Virus record (IMG/VR): IMGVR_UViG_3300045971_000163
Location: 1-64,000 of that record
DNA from: a virus
DNA length: 64,000 nt
Strand: one strand, 5' to 3'
Position numbers and translations under genes: made by a program. The notes under the pieces were generated by a model that ran no database searches, was not told the DNA's origin, and saw only the letters and a program-made list of their open reading frames with translations. This document shows, one piece after another, positions 1,954 to 26,907 of this stretch. Position 1 is the stretch's first letter. Every line of letters begins with the position of its first letter.

Positions 1954-1987
1954 AACACACAGGTATGTGTTTTATAGGAGGCCAGGT

Positions 1988-3385
1988 ATGGCTTATTCAG
2001 AAAAGGTTGTGGATCATTATGAGAATCCACGTAACGTAGGATCGTTCGACAAGAATGATAGTTCAGTGGGCACTGGGTTAGTAGGTGCCCCGTCGTGTGG
2101 GGATGTTTTGAAGCTACAGATTAAAGTAGTGGATGGCATTATAACTGACGCAGTGTTTAAGGCTTATGGCTGCTTTATTAGTAACGCATTGATTAACACT
2201 CCAACACGGTCAAGAAAAATATCAGAGTTGCGGATTGGTGATGCTGTGTTAGCATGGAATGGGACAACTGTAGTTAGTCAAAAAATTAAAGAAATTATAA
2301 AACACTCAGTTCCAGTGTCTGAGTTAATGTGTGTTTCTATTGCTAGAAAAGAAGGGTCAACCACGACACCAGTTCAACTTATTGTAACAAAAGACCATAT
2401 TTTCTGGGGTGCAAATAATAAACCAGTGCAAGCAAATACTTTATGCCCTGGACAAGAGCTATATGAATTGACAGAACATGAATTGAGAGTGTTAACTAAT
2501 ATCCGGCATCGCGACGAGTTAAAGCAAAAAAACAGTAAGAGGATGTTTGAGTTTAACAAAGGGTTTGATAAAACCACGTTACCACAAAATCAACCCGGCT
2601 ATGTTTGTAAAGATGTCGAAACTGCTCGGAAACGCAAATCCATTGCAGCAATCAATAAGTGGAGTGATCCAGCATACAAAGAAAAATGGTCAGCGGGAAT
2701 GTCTGCTATTGATAGAGCTAAACCAACATCAATCGAAAACAAATTTATTAAATTATTTGAGGAAAACAATGTTGCAGCAGTGTACAGTGCCAATAAAGTA
2801 TGGATACAAACAAGCAGTGGCCCAGCAAGTCCAGATTTTATTGTGCCAGGAAAGAAAAAATGTATAGAAGTATATACCACACGAATGCCAGCATTTATGC
2901 AAGACCGATCAACAAAGTCTGATTATGTTAAAAACAGAGTAGCACAATTTGCATCAGCTGGATATGACTGCTTATGCATACCAATTGAACAATTTAGCGA
3001 GGCTCTACCAACTGTTCAAAATTTCATACACAATGGCAAAAAAATCATAAAAGTGTCAAGCAAAATACACGGGCATACATTAAATTCCTGTGAGCGTGAT
3101 GGTGATAATGTAATAGTGTATGACCTTAGATTAGAAGATGGTGCCCATGTATATTTTAGTCATGGTGTTGGATCTCATAATTGTGGATCAGCGATTGCAT
3201 CAAGTTCGTTAGTTACAGAATGGGTTAAAGGCAAATCGTTAGATGATGCTGTGATGATTAAAAATCAAGACATCGCCGAGGAACTTTGTCTCCCGCCAGT
3301 TAAGATACATTGCTCCATCCTTGCCGAAGATTCCATTAAAGCGGCGATTGCTGACTATAAGGCAAAACATGTTGTCACTCACTGA
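1988..3385 (+). CDS. iscU: Iron-sulfur scaffold protein IscU interrupted by an intein
   Basis: IscU is the scaffold on which [2Fe-2S] and [4Fe-4S] clusters are assembled before transfer to client proteins. Residues 1-61 and the segment after base 3181 join into a 128-residue protein that aligns almost end to end with proteobacterial IscU (AYSEKV, ENPRNVGSF, YGCGSAIASSSL, LPPVKIHCSILAED). The three scaffold cysteines (C37 in APSCGD, the YGC cysteine, and the HC cysteine near the end) are present, as is the LPPVK motif that recruits the HscA chaperone. The precursor is 465 residues because of the intein at 2171-3181. AGGAGG precedes ATG 1988; a slightly earlier in-frame start (1967) lacks this. 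The stop overlaps iscA by 17 bases. Confidence 0.93.
   Translation: MAYSEKVVDHYENPRNVGSFDKNDSSVGTGLVGAPSCGDVLKLQIKVVDGIITDAVFKAYGCFISNALINTPTRSRKISELRIGDAVLAWNGTTVVSQKIKEIIKHSVPVSELMCVSIARKEGSTTTPVQLIVTKDHIFWGANNKPVQANTLCPGQELYELTEHELRVLTNIRHRDELKQKNSKRMFEFNKGFDKTTLPQNQPGYVCKDVETARKRKSIAAINKWSDPAYKEKWSAGMSAIDRAKPTSIENKFIKLFEENNVAAVYSANKVWIQTSSGPASPDFIVPGKKKCIEVYTTRMPAFMQDRSTKSDYVKNRVAQFASAGYDCLCIPIEQFSEALPTVQNFIHNGKKIIKVSSKIHGHTLNSCERDGDNVIVYDLRLEDGAHVYFSHGVGSHNCGSAIASSSLVTEWVKGKSLDDAVMIKNQDIAEELCLPPVKIHCSILAEDSIKAAIADYKAKHVVTH
2171..3181 (+). mobile_element. Intein (337 residues) with a Vsr-like homing endonuclease
   Basis: The insert begins with Cys (CFISNALINTPT), has the block-B TxxH motif as TKDH (intein residues 73-76), and ends in HN followed by the +1 Cys of the host protein (HGVGSHN|CGSAIAS). 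Excision restores the IscU sequence exactly, YG|CGSAIA. Between the splicing blocks, residues 185-290 resemble a Vsr-like or PD-(D/E)xK nuclease: SIENKFIKLF, then PDFIVPGKKKCIEV with the D...ExK-type spacing. Ahead of it ARKRKSIAAINKWSDP looks like a NUMOD-type DNA-binding helix. The insertion site is directly before a cluster-ligand cysteine, which doubles as the splicing nucleophile. Confidence 0.9.
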
Positions 3386-4084: not shown

Positions 4085-4651
4085 ATGTTTTTACGAGATA
4101 CACAAGAATCATCAACATTTATTAGAAAATACAAATCAGGAAAAGAAGTTGAATGCAAATCAGTGAGAACTACTCATTATTTTAAATGTGATAAATGCGG
4201 TGTAGAATTTTCTAGGCCAAAAAATGGATATACTAATTTACATACTGGCAGTCATTTTTGTACTGAATGTTATAGCAAGTCTGAAATGCAAACATTGTCA
4301 ACGCTGTCACGTAAGCGTGAATTTGAGCAAAATGGAGAAAAAGTAAAAATAGATCGTGGATATAAAGAAATCTATGTCGGCAATGAGTACCCATATCGAA
4401 ATACATTGTGGGTAAGAGAGCATATTGCAGTTATAGAACGGCACATAGGAAAAAGAATACCCGACGGATTTGTAGTGCATCATATTGACGGAAATAAAGC
4501 AAACAACAAGTTATCTAACTTGTTGTTATGTTCCGTGGCTAACCATAATAAATGTCACGGAAAAATAGAAAGGCTTGTTTTTGAATTATACGAAAAAGGT
4601 CTAGTAGATTTTGATAAAGAAAAAATGGAATATTTTTTAAAACAGGTATAA
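4085..4651 (+). CDS. Free-standing HNH homing endonuclease
   Basis: 188 residues. A zinc-ribbon-like N-terminal part (CDKCGVEF ... CTEC, residues 38-62) is followed by a classic HNH domain at about 118-160: VREHIAVIERHIGKRIP, then VVHHIDGNKANNKLSNLLLC and NHNKCH. These enzymes cut DNA and promote copying of their own gene. It has its own late-type promoter and sits exactly between the Fe-S operon and the non-coding RNA array, so it may have been inserted into a formerly intact junction. Confidence 0.88.
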   Translation: MFLRDTQESSTFIRKYKSGKEVECKSVRTTHYFKCDKCGVEFSRPKNGYTNLHTGSHFCTECYSKSEMQTLSTLSRKREFEQNGEKVKIDRGYKEIYVGNEYPYRNTLWVREHIAVIERHIGKRIPDGFVVHHIDGNKANNKLSNLLLCSVANHNKCHGKIERLVFELYEKGLVDFDKEKMEYFLKQV

Positions 4652-4676: not shown

Positions 4677-4705
4677 TTGCTATCTATATACTTTGCATAT
4701 ATAAT
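4677..4705 (+). promoter_or_regulatory. Sigma70-type promoter of the RNA array
   Basis: TTGCTA (4677-4682), a 17-base spacer, and a perfect TATAAT (4700-4705). The predicted start near 4712 is only about 4 bases ahead of the first array helix at 4716. A TATAAATA late-type box also lies at 4647-4654, so the array could be read both early and late. Confidence 0.65.
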
Positions 4706-4715
4706 AGCGTGATAG

Positions 4716-4834
4716 AGAATAGGTACAGCAGTTTAAAAACAGCACTAGTCGGATAATCGCTTTAGGACTTGTCCTTTAGACTTACTGACAAACTTGAACA
4801 CCGAACCAAGTAAAAAGGGCGGAAAAACTATTCT
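4716..4834 (+). ncRNA. Array RNA unit A (119 nt)
   Basis: The unit is closed by AGAATAG (4716-4722) pairing with CTATTCT (4828-4834). Just inside the 5' strand is GTACAGCAG, the conserved motif of all five units. An internal AGGA/TCCT hairpin lies at 4764-4775. There is no coding frame worth calling. It is separated from unit B by a 19-base AU-rich linker. Confidence 0.6.
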
Positions 4835-4853
4835 GGTAGATTTTGAAATTATA

Positions 4854-5017
4854 AGGATCGGTTCAGCAACACCATAATACTATGGGAGGGAACTACTGCG
4901 CGGTAATTGTGGAGCCTTTCGGGGCTTTGAAGCAGTTATCGACACGCTGAAAGGCAAGTATAACCTCAAGGTGAGTTTGGATTTTCTCACTTGAAACAAA
5001 AAGTACAAAACGATCCT
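4854..5017 (+). ncRNA. Array RNA unit B (164 nt)
   Basis: The terminal helix is AGGATCG (4854-4860) with CGATCCT (5011-5017), followed by GTT. The motif GTTCAGCAA follows the 5' strand. Internal hairpins are visible: CCATA/TATGG at 4872-4885, AGCC/GGCT near 4913-4926, and GTGAG/CTCAC at about 4971-4990. A U-rich linker of 17 bases leads to unit C. Confidence 0.62.
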
Positions 5018-5034
5018 GTTGTTTTTGTTTTATA

Positions 5035-5272
5035 AGAGTGGGTACAGCAACTCAAAAATACAGCCAATGCTATAGAATGTGGTCGGAGGACTTTATACAG
5101 TGGAAACATTGTACGCAGACGGAATAGCTAGACCGGCTAAGGACCGGGTATGTGCCACGCAGAATACAATGTGGATAGGGCATCGCCGAATCGTTTGCTA
5201 TGGTTGAGTTACAAAGCCTTAAATGGATAACGTCGGACAACCAGACAATAAAAATCGCGTAACAACCACTCT
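5035..5272 (+). ncRNA. Array RNA unit C (238 nt)
   Basis: The terminal helix is AGAGTGG (5035-5041) with CCACTCT (5266-5272), followed by GTT. The motif GTACAGCAA is present. Inside is ACAGTG-GAAA-CATTGT (5097-5112), a hairpin with a GNRA tetraloop. The 3' third (GGATA, TCGG, CCAGA, AATAAA between 5225 and 5252) is shared with unit D, so these two are the closest relatives. Confidence 0.62.
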
Positions 5273-5283
5273 GTTATTTTGTT

Positions 5284-5507
5284 AGGATGAATTCAGCAAA
5301 CTACCACTCTTGCCCGTAAGGGCGAATAAGGCTGCAAGTAATCGTTCGCGGTGAAAGCTAATGTACATAGAATATGTAATAGTGCTCATAGAATGTGAGA
5401 TACGCTTCCAACTAAATTTGGAATAGTTGTCAGTTAGAATAATTGGATAGGGTCGGGGCATTTTAAAAGGGCCGACCAGAATAATAAATTACTGTGCCGA
5501 TCATCCT
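5284..5507 (+). ncRNA. Array RNA unit D (224 nt)
   Basis: The terminal helix is AGGATGA (5284-5290) with TCATCCT (5501-5507), followed by GTT. The motif is ATTCAGCAA. Inside are GCCC-GTAA-GGGC (5312-5323), a GNRA-type hairpin, and GGTCGG/CCGACC (5451-5456 with 5472-5477). The 3' block 5445-5488 resembles that of unit C. Confidence 0.62.
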
Positions 5508-5523
5508 GTTGTATTTGATAATA

Positions 5524-5600
5524 AGGTTAAATTCAGCAATTTAAAACTGCCTCAATTGGGGCTTCAATGAAAGCAGCTATGCTCTAAATAGTGTTAACCT
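5524..5600 (+). ncRNA. Array RNA unit E (77 nt), abutting the Ro60-like gene
   Basis: The terminal helix is AGGTTAA (5524-5530) with TTAACCT (5594-5600). The motif is ATTCAGCAA. Inner hairpins are GCCTC-AATT-GGGGC (5549-5562) and AGCA/TGCT (5572-5583). The 3' strand ends one base before the AAAGGA ribosome-binding region of the Ro60-like gene (start 5615), so this shortest unit could act in cis as a leader element that senses the protein, or be cut off as a separate RNA. Confidence 0.55.
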
Positions 5601-5614
5601 GAAAGGAAATTGAA

Positions 5615-6091
5615 ATGAACGCATTTGTAAATGCCATTGGTGAACAAATTCAACGTACCGAAAACGGTATGAAGGCTCGTGCATCCACAGCTAACGCCTG
5701 TGTTGACCTTTTCTTCGCTATCGGTGCAAGCCGTGGCAAGAACATCATCCCTCAATTCACTGCGGCATTCGTAGAGAACTCTGACCTTGCCTTGCGCATC
5801 GTTGCATGGGCTCGTGACGTTCGTGGTGGTGCGGGTGAACGTGAAATCTTCCGCTCGGTGCTTGCGCACCTTGAAACCGCTAACCCAGATGCTGCTAAGG
5901 CTCTGGTTAAGAAGGTACCTGAATTGGGCCGCTTTGACGATGGTCACTGTCTGAAAACAAAAGAACTCAAGACAGTTTGGTTTACAATACTAGGTGATAT
6001 TTTACGTGCTGGGCAAAATGCTAAAGAATTGCTGCCACAGATTGATTTGATGACTGAGGCTCAGTGCAAGAAAGTTCTAGAATCTCTTTGA
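5615..6091 (+). CDS. Ro60/TROVE-like protein, N-terminal half
   Basis: 158 residues. Residues 1-107 match the start of TROVE/DUF2828-type helical-repeat proteins: the signature WARDVRGGAGERE (69-81) and ELGRFDD (101-107). Ro60-family proteins form a helical ring that binds Y RNAs and misfolded RNAs. The C-terminal vWA half is encoded by the separate frame at 6865-7950. The frame stops at 6091, where it overlaps the 3' end of an antisense GIY-YIG endonuclease. Residues after about 108 may be remnants of the original gene or read-through. Start: AAAGGAAAT precedes ATG 5615. Confidence 0.72.
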   Translation: MNAFVNAIGEQIQRTENGMKARASTANACVDLFFAIGASRGKNIIPQFTAAFVENSDLALRIVAWARDVRGGAGEREIFRSVLAHLETANPDAAKALVKKVPELGRFDDGHCLKTKELKTVWFTILGDILRAGQNAKELLPQIDLMTEAQCKKVLESL

Positions 6092-6864: not shown

Positions 6865-7950
6865 ATGTCATTTAAACAAGAACTTCGTAACAAATTAAAC
6901 CAACAATTGATCACTGCACAATCTGTCGCAAAATGGATGCCTCGTGAAAAGTCGGCAAAATCCACTGTGGCAAGAGAAATTCGTGAGTTTTTTGGCATGT
7001 CTCCAAAGTTCTATCGCCGTTCTATTGCTGAAATGTCGGATACAGTAGAGCAGAAGATGTGTGCCAGACTTTGGGATAACATCAATTATAGTCAAGTTCC
7101 ATCCGTAGCTCATTCACGCTACAAAAAAGCGTTTGGAAAGAATGGCACCACTTACGCTGAATACGTAACCAAGTTGGTTAAGGGTGATGACCCAACTGTG
7201 AAGATCAATGCTTCGGCAATCTTCCCACATGATGTGTTGAAGGGTCGTATCAACGGCTACGACATGAAGTGGGACAAGCAAGAGCTTGATGTGATCGAAG
7301 CTCAATGGGCTGCTCTGCCAAACTACATTGGTGACGCTTCGGTGTTGCCACTAGTTGACGTGTCTGGCTCGATGACTTGTACTGCTGGGCAAAAGGGTAC
7401 TACCACTTGTTTGGAAATCGCAGTGTCTTTGGGCCTGTACTTTGCAGACAAGAACAAGGGTGCCTTTAAGGATTGTATGCTGACTTTCAGCGACAAGCCA
7501 CAGTTGGTGGAGCTGAAGGGCAACATCAACGAGAAGATCAACCAAATGGTTACCACTGATTGGGGCATGAGCACTAACCTGCACTCGGCATTCAACGCGA
7601 TTCTGGCTACGGCTGTGAATCAAAAGGTGCCAGCGGCAGATATGCCAGGTACTGTGATCATCTTCTCAGACATGCAATTCAATGCCTGTGTGCATAACGA
7701 TGATTCAGCGATGGAGATGATTGAACGCAAGTATGCGGATGCAGGTTACACTGTGCCTAATGTTGTGTTCTGGAACTTGAACGCGGCATCTAACGTGCCA
7801 GTGAAGTTCGACAAGACAGGCGCTGCACTGGTATCTGGTTTCAGCCCAGCGGTTGCTACGGCAATCTTGTCTGGTAACATGGACGACTTCACCCCAGAAG
7901 CGATCATGTTGAAGGCGGTTATGGCGGACAGATATGCACTATGCGATTAA
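6865..7950 (+). CDS. Ro60/TROVE-like protein, C-terminal half with vWA domain
   Basis: 361 residues. Residues 15-130 continue the helical-repeat part (AKWMPREKS, then WDNINYSQVPSVAHSRYKKAF, typical of TROVE/DUF2828 proteins). The vWA domain follows, with a full MIDAS: DVSGS (165-169), T237 and D269 (FSDMQF). It has its own start (AGAGGAC before ATG 6865) and a -10-like TATAAT at 6834, so it can be made as a separate polypeptide. Together with 5615-6091 it makes about 519 residues, the normal size for an unsplit protein of this type. Whether the halves reassemble is not known. Confidence 0.8.
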   Translation: MSFKQELRNKLNQQLITAQSVAKWMPREKSAKSTVAREIREFFGMSPKFYRRSIAEMSDTVEQKMCARLWDNINYSQVPSVAHSRYKKAFGKNGTTYAEYVTKLVKGDDPTVKINASAIFPHDVLKGRINGYDMKWDKQELDVIEAQWAALPNYIGDASVLPLVDVSGSMTCTAGQKGTTTCLEIAVSLGLYFADKNKGAFKDCMLTFSDKPQLVELKGNINEKINQMVTTDWGMSTNLHSAFNAILATAVNQKVPAADMPGTVIIFSDMQFNACVHNDDSAMEMIERKYADAGYTVPNVVFWNLNAASNVPVKFDKTGAALVSGFSPAVATAILSGNMDDFTPEAIMLKAVMADRYALCD

Positions 7951-17935: not shown

Positions 17936-17964
17936 TTGACAGTGCCCTGATTTCAGTGTATAAT
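17936..17964 (+). promoter_or_regulatory. Sigma70 promoter of the vWA gene, leaderless-type spacing
   Basis: TTGACA (17936-17941), a 17-base spacer and TATAAT (17959-17964), then 6 bases to ATG 17971. It shares TTTCAGTRTATAATACTCGCAT with the MoxR promoter at 14449-14477. Confidence 0.8.
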
Positions 17965-17970
17965 ACTCGC

Positions 17971-19251
17971 ATGCACACAGAAAGCTCACACAAAATGGTT
18001 ACATTTAACGAATACGTTATGCACGCCGTCGGCACTTCAACGCAAAAGAAGATGAAGGCTGATCCGTTGCCAACGGACCCAGAGATTGATCGTCGTACAC
18101 AAGAAAAGCTAATTACAGCCCGCATTGGTTTGCTGCTTAAGGCGCCGTTTTTTGGCAACCTTGCAACCCGCCTTATACTTAAAAACGCTGACGAGTGGCT
18201 TACCACTATTGCCACTGACGGGCGTTATTTTTACTACAATTCCCGCTTTGTTGACAGCATGAGCATCAAGCAGACTGAGTTTGGCTTTGGCCACGAAGTG
18301 TTGCACAATGTTTATGACCACATGGGCCGTTGCGGTGACCGTGACAAACGCCTGTTTAACATTGCCGCTGACTACTGCGTCAACCAGGATTTGCTGGACC
18401 AACGCATCGGCGAACGTATTACAGTTATCCAAATTTTAGTTGATGCCAAGTACAAGGGCATGTCAGCTGAAGAAGTGTACGACGATTTGTATGCTAACGC
18501 CGAGAAAATTAACATTGACGATCTGCTTAACAAGATGCTGGACGAGCATTTGGACGACAGCGATGAGAACGACGATAACCGTCCTAAATACAGCGAAGAA
18601 GAACGCCGCCAAATCCGCGACGAGATTAAAGAAGCAATGTTGAGTGCTGCTCAAACGTGCGGCGCTGGTAACTTGCCAGGTGGTGTGCGGCGTATGCTTG
18701 CTGACATGACAGAGCCAAAGATGAACTGGCGTGAACTGTTGCAGCAACAAATTGAAAGCACAGTCAAAGCAGACTACACATTCATGAAACCGTCGCGCCG
18801 CAACTGGCACATGGATGCAATTTTCCCAGGGCAAAGCAATGCAGACATGATTGACATCTGCATCAGCGTTGACTTGTCGGGTTCCATCAGCGATACACAG
18901 TGCAAGGATTTCTTTAGCGAGATCCACGGCATTATGCAGATGTATGATGCGTTTAAGATTACTGTGTGGACGTTCGACACTGCGGTTTACAATCCCGCAA
19001 CGTTTACGCAAGATAACATGGACGAGATTTTGACATACGTGCCTGAAGGTGGCGGTGGCACAACGTTTGAAGCTAACTGGGAATTCATGAAGGAAAACGA
19101 GATTGAACCTAAAAAGTTCATCATGTTTACTGACGGCTACCCGTGCGGTTCTTGGGGTGACGAAAATTACTGTGATACTGTATTCATTATTCACGGGTCA
19201 ACGACGATTGAACCCCCATTCGGTACATTCGCGTATTATGATGCGGCGTAA
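17971..19251 (+). CDS. vWA protein with HExxH metallopeptidase-like region (DUF2201 type)
   Basis: 426 residues. The N-terminal part carries a zinc-binding helix, GHEVLHNVYDH (107-117, HEVLH at 108-112). The middle is acidic (about 185-220). The C-terminal vWA domain has a MIDAS: DLSGS (301-305), the GGGGTTF threonine and FTDGYP. This layout matches DUF2201 metallopeptidase-like vWA proteins that accompany MoxR ATPases. The start may be ATG 17971, essentially at the predicted transcription start, or ATG 17995; neither has a clear ribosome site. Its 3' end overlaps a convergent HNH gene by 16 bases but appears complete. Confidence 0.82.
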   Translation: MHTESSHKMVTFNEYVMHAVGTSTQKKMKADPLPTDPEIDRRTQEKLITARIGLLLKAPFFGNLATRLILKNADEWLTTIATDGRYFYYNSRFVDSMSIKQTEFGFGHEVLHNVYDHMGRCGDRDKRLFNIAADYCVNQDLLDQRIGERITVIQILVDAKYKGMSAEEVYDDLYANAEKINIDDLLNKMLDEHLDDSDENDDNRPKYSEEERRQIRDEIKEAMLSAAQTCGAGNLPGGVRRMLADMTEPKMNWRELLQQQIESTVKADYTFMKPSRRNWHMDAIFPGQSNADMIDICISVDLSGSISDTQCKDFFSEIHGIMQMYDAFKITVWTFDTAVYNPATFTQDNMDEILTYVPEGGGGTTFEANWEFMKENEIEPKKFIMFTDGYPCGSWGDENYCDTVFIIHGSTTIEPPFGTFAYYDAA

Positions 19252-25832: not shown

Positions 25833-26907
25833 CGGATTAGGCAGGCAGTACGCTTCACTTAAAGAAGAGTTGCTGCATGCTGCTGATTTAGTGTACTCAA
25901 GTGGTCGAGTACTAGATGGTGAGTACACTGCTAAGTTTGAGCAAGCGATTGCCACACGTACAGATCGCACGTATGCAATATCTGTTAGCAGTTGCTCACA
26001 GGCGTTGTTAGTGTCAATGATGGCGTATGCTGGCCACGACACTAGTAAAAAGGTTGCAGTACCTGCATTAAGTTTTGCAGCCACCGCTAACGCCAGCGTA
26101 TTAGCAGGGCGTAATATTCAATTTATTGACACTGACACAGACGGTATCCTAGATATAAGTAAACTTGATGGATCGCATATTGGTATTATTTTGTATGTTA
26201 ACTTATTTGGTAATGTCATTGACTACGATAAGCTAAAATTAGTAAGCGACTTTTTCAATGATAGTATCCCTATTATCGAAGATGCTGCTCAAAGTTTTGG
26301 TGCCTACTATAAAGGTAAGCCTAGTGGCAAGCTAGGAGACATTAGTTGTTTATCTTTTGATCCCACTAAAAATTTACCTAACTATGGTAGTGGCGGAATG
26401 GTGCTAACAGATAATGATGACGTTGCCGCGTATGTAAAAAGTTTTAAAGACAACGGCAAACAATCTAGTCACTGGATGGTGGGCACAAACTCCAAAATGA
26501 GCGAGGCTGACTGTGCACAAATGTTAGTTAAGTTGAAATATTTTGATCAGTGGCAGGCACGTAGAGCTAAAATTGCTGCGTACTATGCAGACAACCTAAG
26601 CGACATTGTTTCTGTGCCAGAGTACTCGTTTGATGTAATACCGTCGTGGCACAAGTATGTTATTACTACAGTTGATAATCGCGATGACCTAGCCAGCAAA
26701 TTATTAACGTATGGAGTCGAGACAAAAGTTCACTATAAAACATTGATGCCTGACATGCCTGTATTCCGCTATGATGGTAACATACCATTCCCTGCCGCAG
26801 ATGCAATATCCAATACTGCGCTAAGTTTACCTATCTATCCCGAGTTAACCGACGTAGATGTTGAGCATGTAGCAGCATCAATACGCTCCGTATTTCTCAA
26901 CAAATAA
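25807..26907 (+). CDS. DegT/DnrJ/EryC1 PLP sugar aminotransferase
   Basis: 366 residues. The PLP lysine is K188 in SFDPTKNLPNYGSGG, with the cofactor-binding D159 in IIEDAAQSFGA. These enzymes transfer an amino group to a keto sugar nucleotide. It overlaps the epimerase gene by 26 bases, so the two should be made together. It converges with the 1102-residue minus-strand gene, overlapping by 30 bases. Confidence 0.9.
   Translation: MSGYKVPFNGLGRQYASLKEELLHAADLVYSSGRVLDGEYTAKFEQAIATRTDRTYAISVSSCSQALLVSMMAYAGHDTSKKVAVPALSFAATANASVLAGRNIQFIDTDTDGILDISKLDGSHIGIILYVNLFGNVIDYDKLKLVSDFFNDSIPIIEDAAQSFGAYYKGKPSGKLGDISCLSFDPTKNLPNYGSGGMVLTDNDDVAAYVKSFKDNGKQSSHWMVGTNSKMSEADCAQMLVKLKYFDQWQARRAKIAAYYADNLSDIVSVPEYSFDVIPSWHKYVITTVDNRDDLASKLLTYGVETKVHYKTLMPDMPVFRYDGNIPFPAADAISNTALSLPIYPELTDVDVEHVAASIRSVFLNK

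Follow-up and report, generated by a model that had tools for sequence, protein, structure and literature searches.

Work on particles of Ro60 and Y RNA has so far concerned animals and a small number of bacteria, and in Deinococcus the RNA YrlA reaches PNPase (PMC8394870). Among phages, Y RNAs were reported earlier from mycobacteriophages (Chen 2014, cited in PMC12282133), and for the Listeria phage CKA15 a published study describes three very abundant noncoding regions 5' of a Ro60-like gene on the same strand, places the Ro60-like protein in virions, and offers Y RNAs as a guess, with no description of structure (PMC12282133). A further described group, the Class I RNAs, has been reported only from dictyostelids, where the binding protein Rnp1A carries RRM domains; these RNAs begin with A-G and have a compensatory end stem, the motif CCUUACAGCAA, a CUGU end, and a variable interior (PMC7919456). 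Here we analyze a tandem array of five structured RNA units (A to E) upstream of a Ro60-like gene in positions 1 to 64,000 of the IMG/VR virus record IMGVR_UViG_3300045971_000163 (these 64,000 nucleotides [nt] are called the window; the whole record is 104,139 base pairs [bp] long). The units belong to an RNA family that is genuine and conserved and whose recognition frame and modules are new; they most likely represent Y-RNA-like partners of a Ro60 protein of the DUF2828 type, to which they would bind. Apart from the CKA15 paper, we found no literature on the RNAs of DUF2828 phages.

Results

The RNA array in the window

A first-pass annotation, made by a model from the sequence alone, had called five units of 119, 164, 238, 224, and 77 nt with perfectly paired end helices and a shared motif, and we recovered these exactly as claimed:

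4716-4834, + strand: unit A, 119 nt; helix AGAATAG/CTATTCT; motif GTACAGCA; 3' GGT (end CTGGT)
4854-5017, + strand: unit B, 164 nt; helix AGGATCG/CGATCCT; motif GTTCAGCA; 3' GTT (end CTGTT)
5035-5272, + strand: unit C, 238 nt; helix AGAGTGG/CCACTCT; motif GTACAGCA; 3' GTT (end CTGTT)
5284-5507, + strand: unit D, 224 nt; helix AGGATGA/TCATCCT; motif ATTCAGCA; 3' GTT (end CTGTT)
5524-5600, + strand: unit E, 77 nt; helix AGGTTAA/TTAACCT; motif ATTCAGCA; 3' GAA (end CTGAA)

The 7-bp end helix differs in all five units, and each time its exact reverse complement stands at the opposite end. Directly after the 5' helix strand every unit carries [AG]T[AT]CAGCA (RUWCAGCA in RNA), and neighboring units are separated by 11 to 19 nt. 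The GUU noted earlier 3' of units B, C, and D is indeed seen there, with GGT at unit A and GAA at unit E, where the 3' strand passes straight into the ribosome-binding site (GAAAGGA) of the Ro60-like gene.

The 104,139-bp record contains 33 copies of the motif on the + strand and 40 on the - strand. An exact 7-bp partner within 450 nt of the motif is found for units A to E, for one unrelated + strand site, and for three - strand sites; the G that follows the helix is absent from all four of these non-array sites, and the combination of motif, exact partner, and following G occurs nowhere in the record outside the array. The record contains no tRNA gene, and the open reading frame (ORF) listing gives none of note inside the array region, in agreement with the earlier statement that no credible ORF is present. 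The array DNA has no similarity to known phages, and Rfam returned no match in the window at gathering threshold.

The frame in related viral loci

With the C-terminal portion of the Ro60-like protein as query, a scan of viral contigs yielded the 80 loci used as relatives. In its general form the frame was defined by seven pairs including a G-C pair at the second position (G2-C), the motif CAGC[AG], and G then T or C 3' of the helix. The arrangement of 7-bp helix plus NNNCAGCAA, interior, and helix plus GUU occurs 204 times on the Ro60 strand of the 80 loci versus 3 times on the opposite strand, while altered-motif controls gave 2 to 21 and 0 to 8 occurrences, respectively. Position was counted in the 62 loci with at least 700 nt 5' of the Ro60 ORF; a frame lies at most 1.5 kilobases (kb) upstream of that ORF in 55 of them, and the opposite strand gave 0 of 62. 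The G2-C pair is invariant across 81 units, and in 21 loci the 3' strand of a frame leads into the ribosome-binding site of the Ro60-like gene (GAAAGGA or similar), with several different helices represented. In many of these loci tRNA genes are densely arrayed, with the frames placed between them, and at gathering threshold Rfam recovered only tRNAs and one transfer-messenger RNA (tmRNA) from the relatives. Thus, homologous units do exist beside Ro60-type genes elsewhere, in the 55 viral loci as well as in unrelated isolated phages and bacterial genomes (see below), and no Rfam family scores above threshold for them, two of the points on which the first-pass annotation had staked its reading.

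Covariation of the end helix

Most frames had been collected by requiring complementarity, and we therefore assembled a pairing-blind set in which units were chosen by their 3' anchor and the nearest upstream motif (n = 23). In this set 22 of 23 units pair at 7 of 7 positions over different helices, compared to pairing in 9% of cases when a 5' strand is set against the 3' strand of a unit with a different helix, which bears out the covariation proposed from the five window units. An alignment of units with the large gamma module (described below) has 5 of 7 pairs changing on both sides with all cells paired, versus at most 53% paired in slid controls; this alignment was selected for pairing, and the pairing-blind set is therefore the better evidence. 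A stem formed by the 5' and 3' ends is a general feature of Y RNAs, and the units possess it.

Modules carried inside the frames

The interiors of the frames vary and consist of YrlA-type permuted tRNA mimics, anticodon-arm hairpins, or, as in the window, large folds. YrlA-type modules were found in viral contigs (L006:2969-3082, E = 6.3e-6; L070:675-783, with L070 and L086 both at 2.3e-6), in units of phages of 192 kb to 524 kb, and in isolates, namely both units of Enterococcus phage EFDG1 (5e-10), mycobacteriophage Nicholas (2.5e-8), and Cronobacter phage GAP32 (1.4e-9); all of them score under the Rfam gathering score of 69 bits, which includes the YrlA Ro-binding stem (best relative, 44.9 bits; none in the window). 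Anticodon-arm-like hairpins with a 5-bp stem and a 7-nt NUNNNRN loop are present in 28 of 68 small units versus 2% of shuffled interiors, and their loops differ (CUUGUAA, CUUUUAA, CUCAUAA, CUGCAAA, CUGUUAA, and others). The large modules lie directly 5' of the Ro60 gene and are of two kinds, beta (100 to 170 nt) and gamma (186 to 286 nt); unit B carries the beta module, with GGTGAGTTTGGATTTTCTCACTTGAAACAAAAAGTACAAAAC before the 3' helix, in common with approximately 20 relatives, and units C and D have gamma-type modules.

Isolated phages and bacterial genomes

Frames are located near a DUF2828 gene in Vibrio phage KVP40, Synechococcus phage BUCT-ZZ01, Cronobacter phage S13, Listeria phages List-36 and CKA15, Enterococcus phage EFDG1, Staphylococcus phage S-CoN_Ph11, mycobacteriophage Nicholas, and Pseudomonas phage Milchi, and searches with the Class I model or across whole genomes added Salmonella phage Si3 and Campylobacter phage CP81 to this list. 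Within phages that have a DUF2828 gene the frames are mostly grouped at the Ro/tRNA region, with a few weak frames elsewhere in the KVP40 and Si3 genomes; in some isolates they lie kilobases away from the gene or downstream of it. Several Brachyspira chromosomes have frames within about 350 nt upstream of a DUF2828 gene. Phage T4, which is absent among the DUF2828 matches listed, has no frame among its 143 motifs.

Two side observations concern individual isolates. The CKA15 region at 26,236-26,727, the most abundant noncoding region reported for this phage, is free of frames and could hold a different, unclassified RNA. Phage EFDG1 encodes a tmRNA (L116:107-457; Rfam RF00023, 140.6 bits).

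The Ro60-like protein, its split gene, and neighboring genes

The Ro60-like gene consists of Pfam DUF2828 and a vWA-like DUF7788 domain (DUF7788/VWA_2 matches). Sequence profiles alone gave no match of the DUF2828 protein to Ro60 or TROVE. An AlphaFold (AF2) model of an uninterrupted relative, L002 (mean predicted local distance difference test score [pLDDT], 71.2; predicted template modeling score [pTM], 0.72), returned just three PDB matches at E <= 0.001 in Foldseek, all of them TROVE/Ro60 structures: 9kop (TROVE domain), 9l5y (Ro60 of Thermus phage phiLo), and 9nen (human Ro60). The model has a helical ring, which together with the vWA-type DUF7788/VWA_2 matches corresponds to the architecture of Ro60/TROVE proteins. 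On this modeled structure, the DUF2828 protein has a Ro60 fold. By HHpred, the annotators of phage OC and the authors of the CKA15 paper (PMC12282133) also arrived at Rsr.

In the window the gene is interrupted, while it is whole in relatives such as L002 and L004. The features around the array are as follows:

4677..4705, + strand: sigma-70-like promoter TTGCTA-N17-TATAAT, 10 of 12 consensus positions, with about three such matches expected by chance in the region
5615..6091, + strand: N-terminal part of the Ro60-like gene (DUF2828), homologous to residues 1-136 of uninterrupted L002/L004
6021..6791, - strand: inserted ORF splitting the Ro60-like gene; its N-terminal sequence GIYKLYVKTHSKTGLKYLGMT suggests a GIY-YIG endonuclease, with no Pfam match
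6865..7950, + strand: C-terminal part of the Ro60-like gene (remaining DUF2828 and vWA-like DUF7788)

The promoter sequence proposed in the first-pass annotation is thus present, with the weight of that match reduced by the equal matches expected by chance. Another locus, L056, also has an ORF starting at the second part of the Ro60-like gene. Elsewhere in the window, an HNH_3 endonuclease gene lies directly upstream of the array (4085-4651). An IscU/NifU_N-type Fe-S scaffold gene with an apparent intein interruption (1967-3385; weak Hint-module match inside) is followed by two Fe-S_biosyn genes, and a DUF2201 metallopeptidase/VWA-like protein (17956-19251) is a second vWA-type protein of this phage.

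Discussion

We favor the reading of the framed RNAs as Y-RNA-like partners of the Ro60-like protein because the frames are linked to the DUF2828 gene, the protein has a predicted Ro60 fold, and some frames carry YrlA-type modules. Being encoded with a Ro60-type protein is itself a general feature of Y RNAs, seen here in 55 of 62 loci together with the Ro60/TROVE fold. On expression, the strongly transcribed noncoding regions 5' of the Ro60-like gene of CKA15 (PMC12282133) lend indirect support. The earlier suggestion of a Y-RNA-like family of Ro60 partners consequently gains support from gene linkage and YrlA modules; its isolation as a family does not stand, since the end structure is shared with Class I RNAs and Y RNAs of mycobacteriophages were on record before (Chen 2014, cited in PMC12282133).

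The whole explanation, to which we assign a probability of roughly 0.77, is a phage operon of Y-RNA-like RNAs and a Ro60-like protein in which the frame serves as handle, the interior as effector, and unit E as self-control. The array would be processed into separate RNAs, perhaps by cutting at the U-rich linkers, and the frame (7-bp helix, invariant G2-C, single-stranded RUWCAGCA, and 3' GUU) would be the handle by which the DUF2828-type Ro60 ring binds each RNA. The interior, which varies, would act as an effector module in the form of a tRNA mimic, an anticodon-arm mimic, or a large structured domain (units A to D), through which the ribonucleoprotein (RNP) may tether a nuclease or another partner in RNA processing, or gate it, by analogy with YrlA, Rsr, and PNPase. 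Excess Ro60 could bind unit E in the 5' leader at the Shine-Dalgarno sequence and repress its own translation; such autoregulation is suggested by the position of unit E, which abuts the Ro60 ribosome-binding site as frames do in the 21 relatives.

Several observations weigh against this explanation. Seven of the 62 loci have no detectable frame upstream of the Ro60-like ORF, and units A to D of the window have neither an Rfam match nor a tRNA-like module. The CKA15 frames, at 25,552-25,290, do not coincide with 26,236-26,727, the one coordinate range of an abundant RNA given in the text of PMC12282133. The structural model is of modest quality, with a mean pLDDT of 71 and template modeling (TM) scores of 0.44 to 0.51. 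Finally, with the Ro60-like gene split in the window, this genome may have no working RNP, unless the two parts come together or the insert is taken out.

An alternative that we regard as unlikely gives Ro60 no role and makes the units tRNA-related decoys, or substrates for processing that belong to the phage tRNA array, with the helix mimicking an acceptor stem and the interiors luring host anticodon nucleases or tRNA-processing enzymes. The placement of units between tRNA genes in many relatives is consistent with this, as are a helix of acceptor-stem length followed by a single G, the NUNNNRN hairpins of 28 of 68 small units (2% when shuffled) with their many different "anticodons," and a published suggestion that YrlA might inhibit an anticodon nuclease (PMC7790460). 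Yet the units have no CCA, the large modules of units A to D are unlike tRNA, and the frame tracks the DUF2828 gene: T4 has tRNAs without a frame, the window has frames without a tRNA in 104 kb, and the Brachyspira frames stand at a DUF2828 gene. A decoy role need not conflict with Ro60 binding and could be one of the effector uses.

Far less probable is a splice or circularization element of the permuted intron-exon type, in which the helix joins the ends, the frame is excised, and the interior becomes a circular RNA or a real tRNA. The frame flanks of L006:2969-3082 and L088:1467-1582 would join to perfect anticodon arms (ACG|GC CUUGUAA GCCGU and ACG|GC AUUUUAA GCCGU), and those of L090:1470-1600 would join as GCGGC CU|UCCAA GCCGC, but these joins can be put down to a relic of an origin in tRNA genes; the search gave no consensus for splice sites, the small units already hold a complete anticodon-type arm within the frame, and YrlA, itself a permuted tRNA module, undergoes no splicing (PMC8394870). 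Equally improbable is that unit E alone has a function, regulating the Ro60-like gene in cis from its leader, and that the other units are decayed copies of it. This view draws on the 21 relatives whose Ro start codon is preceded by a frame joined to GAAAGGA or a similar ribosome-binding site. It is opposed by the perfect end helices and contig-to-contig conserved large modules of units A to D and by frames in other phages that lie downstream of the gene or kilobases from it. We also considered, and dropped, integron attC sites and transposon ends because the helix sequence varies freely with pairing kept and a single strand is used.

If the units are Y-RNA-like partners of the Ro60-like protein, the frame would be the second of its kind for RNA recognition, linked to another Ro60 family (DUF2828) and equipped with interchangeable modules. 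Its spread covers phages of Gram-negative, Gram-positive, and cyanobacterial hosts and Brachyspira genomes, and laboratory phages such as KVP40, Felix-type and P100-type phages, EFDG1, and mycobacteriophages offer systems in which the function of Ro60 could be tested.

Comparison with known RNAs

Vertebrate Y RNAs resemble the frames in being small Ro60-linked RNAs with a terminal helix, and no Rfam Y_RNA match was obtained here. The stable RNAs C and D of T4 (species 1 and 2) are likewise phage noncoding RNAs in a tRNA cluster; they were rejected as relatives, being without the end helix and CAGCA frame. The similarity to YrlA (RF02553) and its partner Rsr is more extensive: in both cases a noncoding RNA whose 5' and 3' ends pair into a closing stem stands beside a Ro60-type gene, and the D/T/acceptor tRNA mimic of YrlA, absent from the window units, is present in part of the frame family within the same frame (up to 44.9 bits). 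Unlike YrlA, the frames have RUWCAGCAA at the end stem in place of the YrlA Ro-stem, form arrays, and hold several unrelated modules.

The Class I model RF01414 first surfaced as a weak Rfam match on a unit of L070. A search of 20 viral records with this model gave a best score of 36.6 bits, below the gathering score of 41.5, with E values down to 7e-7 per record, and the 21 best matches among those retrieved (E <= 0.0062) are all frames (21 of 21), some of them with the motif variants UAACAGCAA and UUGCAGCAA that fall outside the initial search pattern. The model also gives weak matches in control genomes. A T4 match (E = 0.0024) falls within gene 31.2 and is regarded as a chance event, and single weak RF01414 matches are accordingly not trustworthy. 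The window units match RF01414 poorly (unit E, 12.9 bits) and are longer, at 77 to 238 nt versus 42 to 65 nt for Class I RNAs of Dictyostelium discoideum, while many relatives measure 47 to 68 nt.

Class I RNAs and frames share a 5' A-G, a compensatory end stem of 6 to 7 bp, a UUACAGCAA-type motif after the 5' strand, a 3' CUGU, and a variable interior (PMC7919456), agreeing point by point except in the details of the first bases of the motif. The frames have the invariant 5' G pairing with the C of the 3' CUGU as well as the compensatory stem; of the 11-nt motif CCUUACAGCAA, CAGCA matches throughout, the window has GTACAGCA/ATTCAGCA, and UUACAGCAA is exact in Staphylococcus, Felix-type, and Campylobacter phages. 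From these sequence features, the likeness may reflect either common descent or convergence on one kind of protein pocket. PMC7919456 makes no mention of a link between Class I RNAs and a Ro60-type protein. We tentatively propose, at somewhat short of even odds, that phage frames and Class I RNAs are one RNA class, whose members serve DUF2828-type Ro60 proteins as partners in phages, bacteria, and eukaryotes alike. If so, a Ro60-like protein would have Class I RNAs as its Y RNAs and would read the frame as a recognition code, which offers a concrete hypothesis for a group of RNAs reported to be unique to dictyostelids (PMC7919456).
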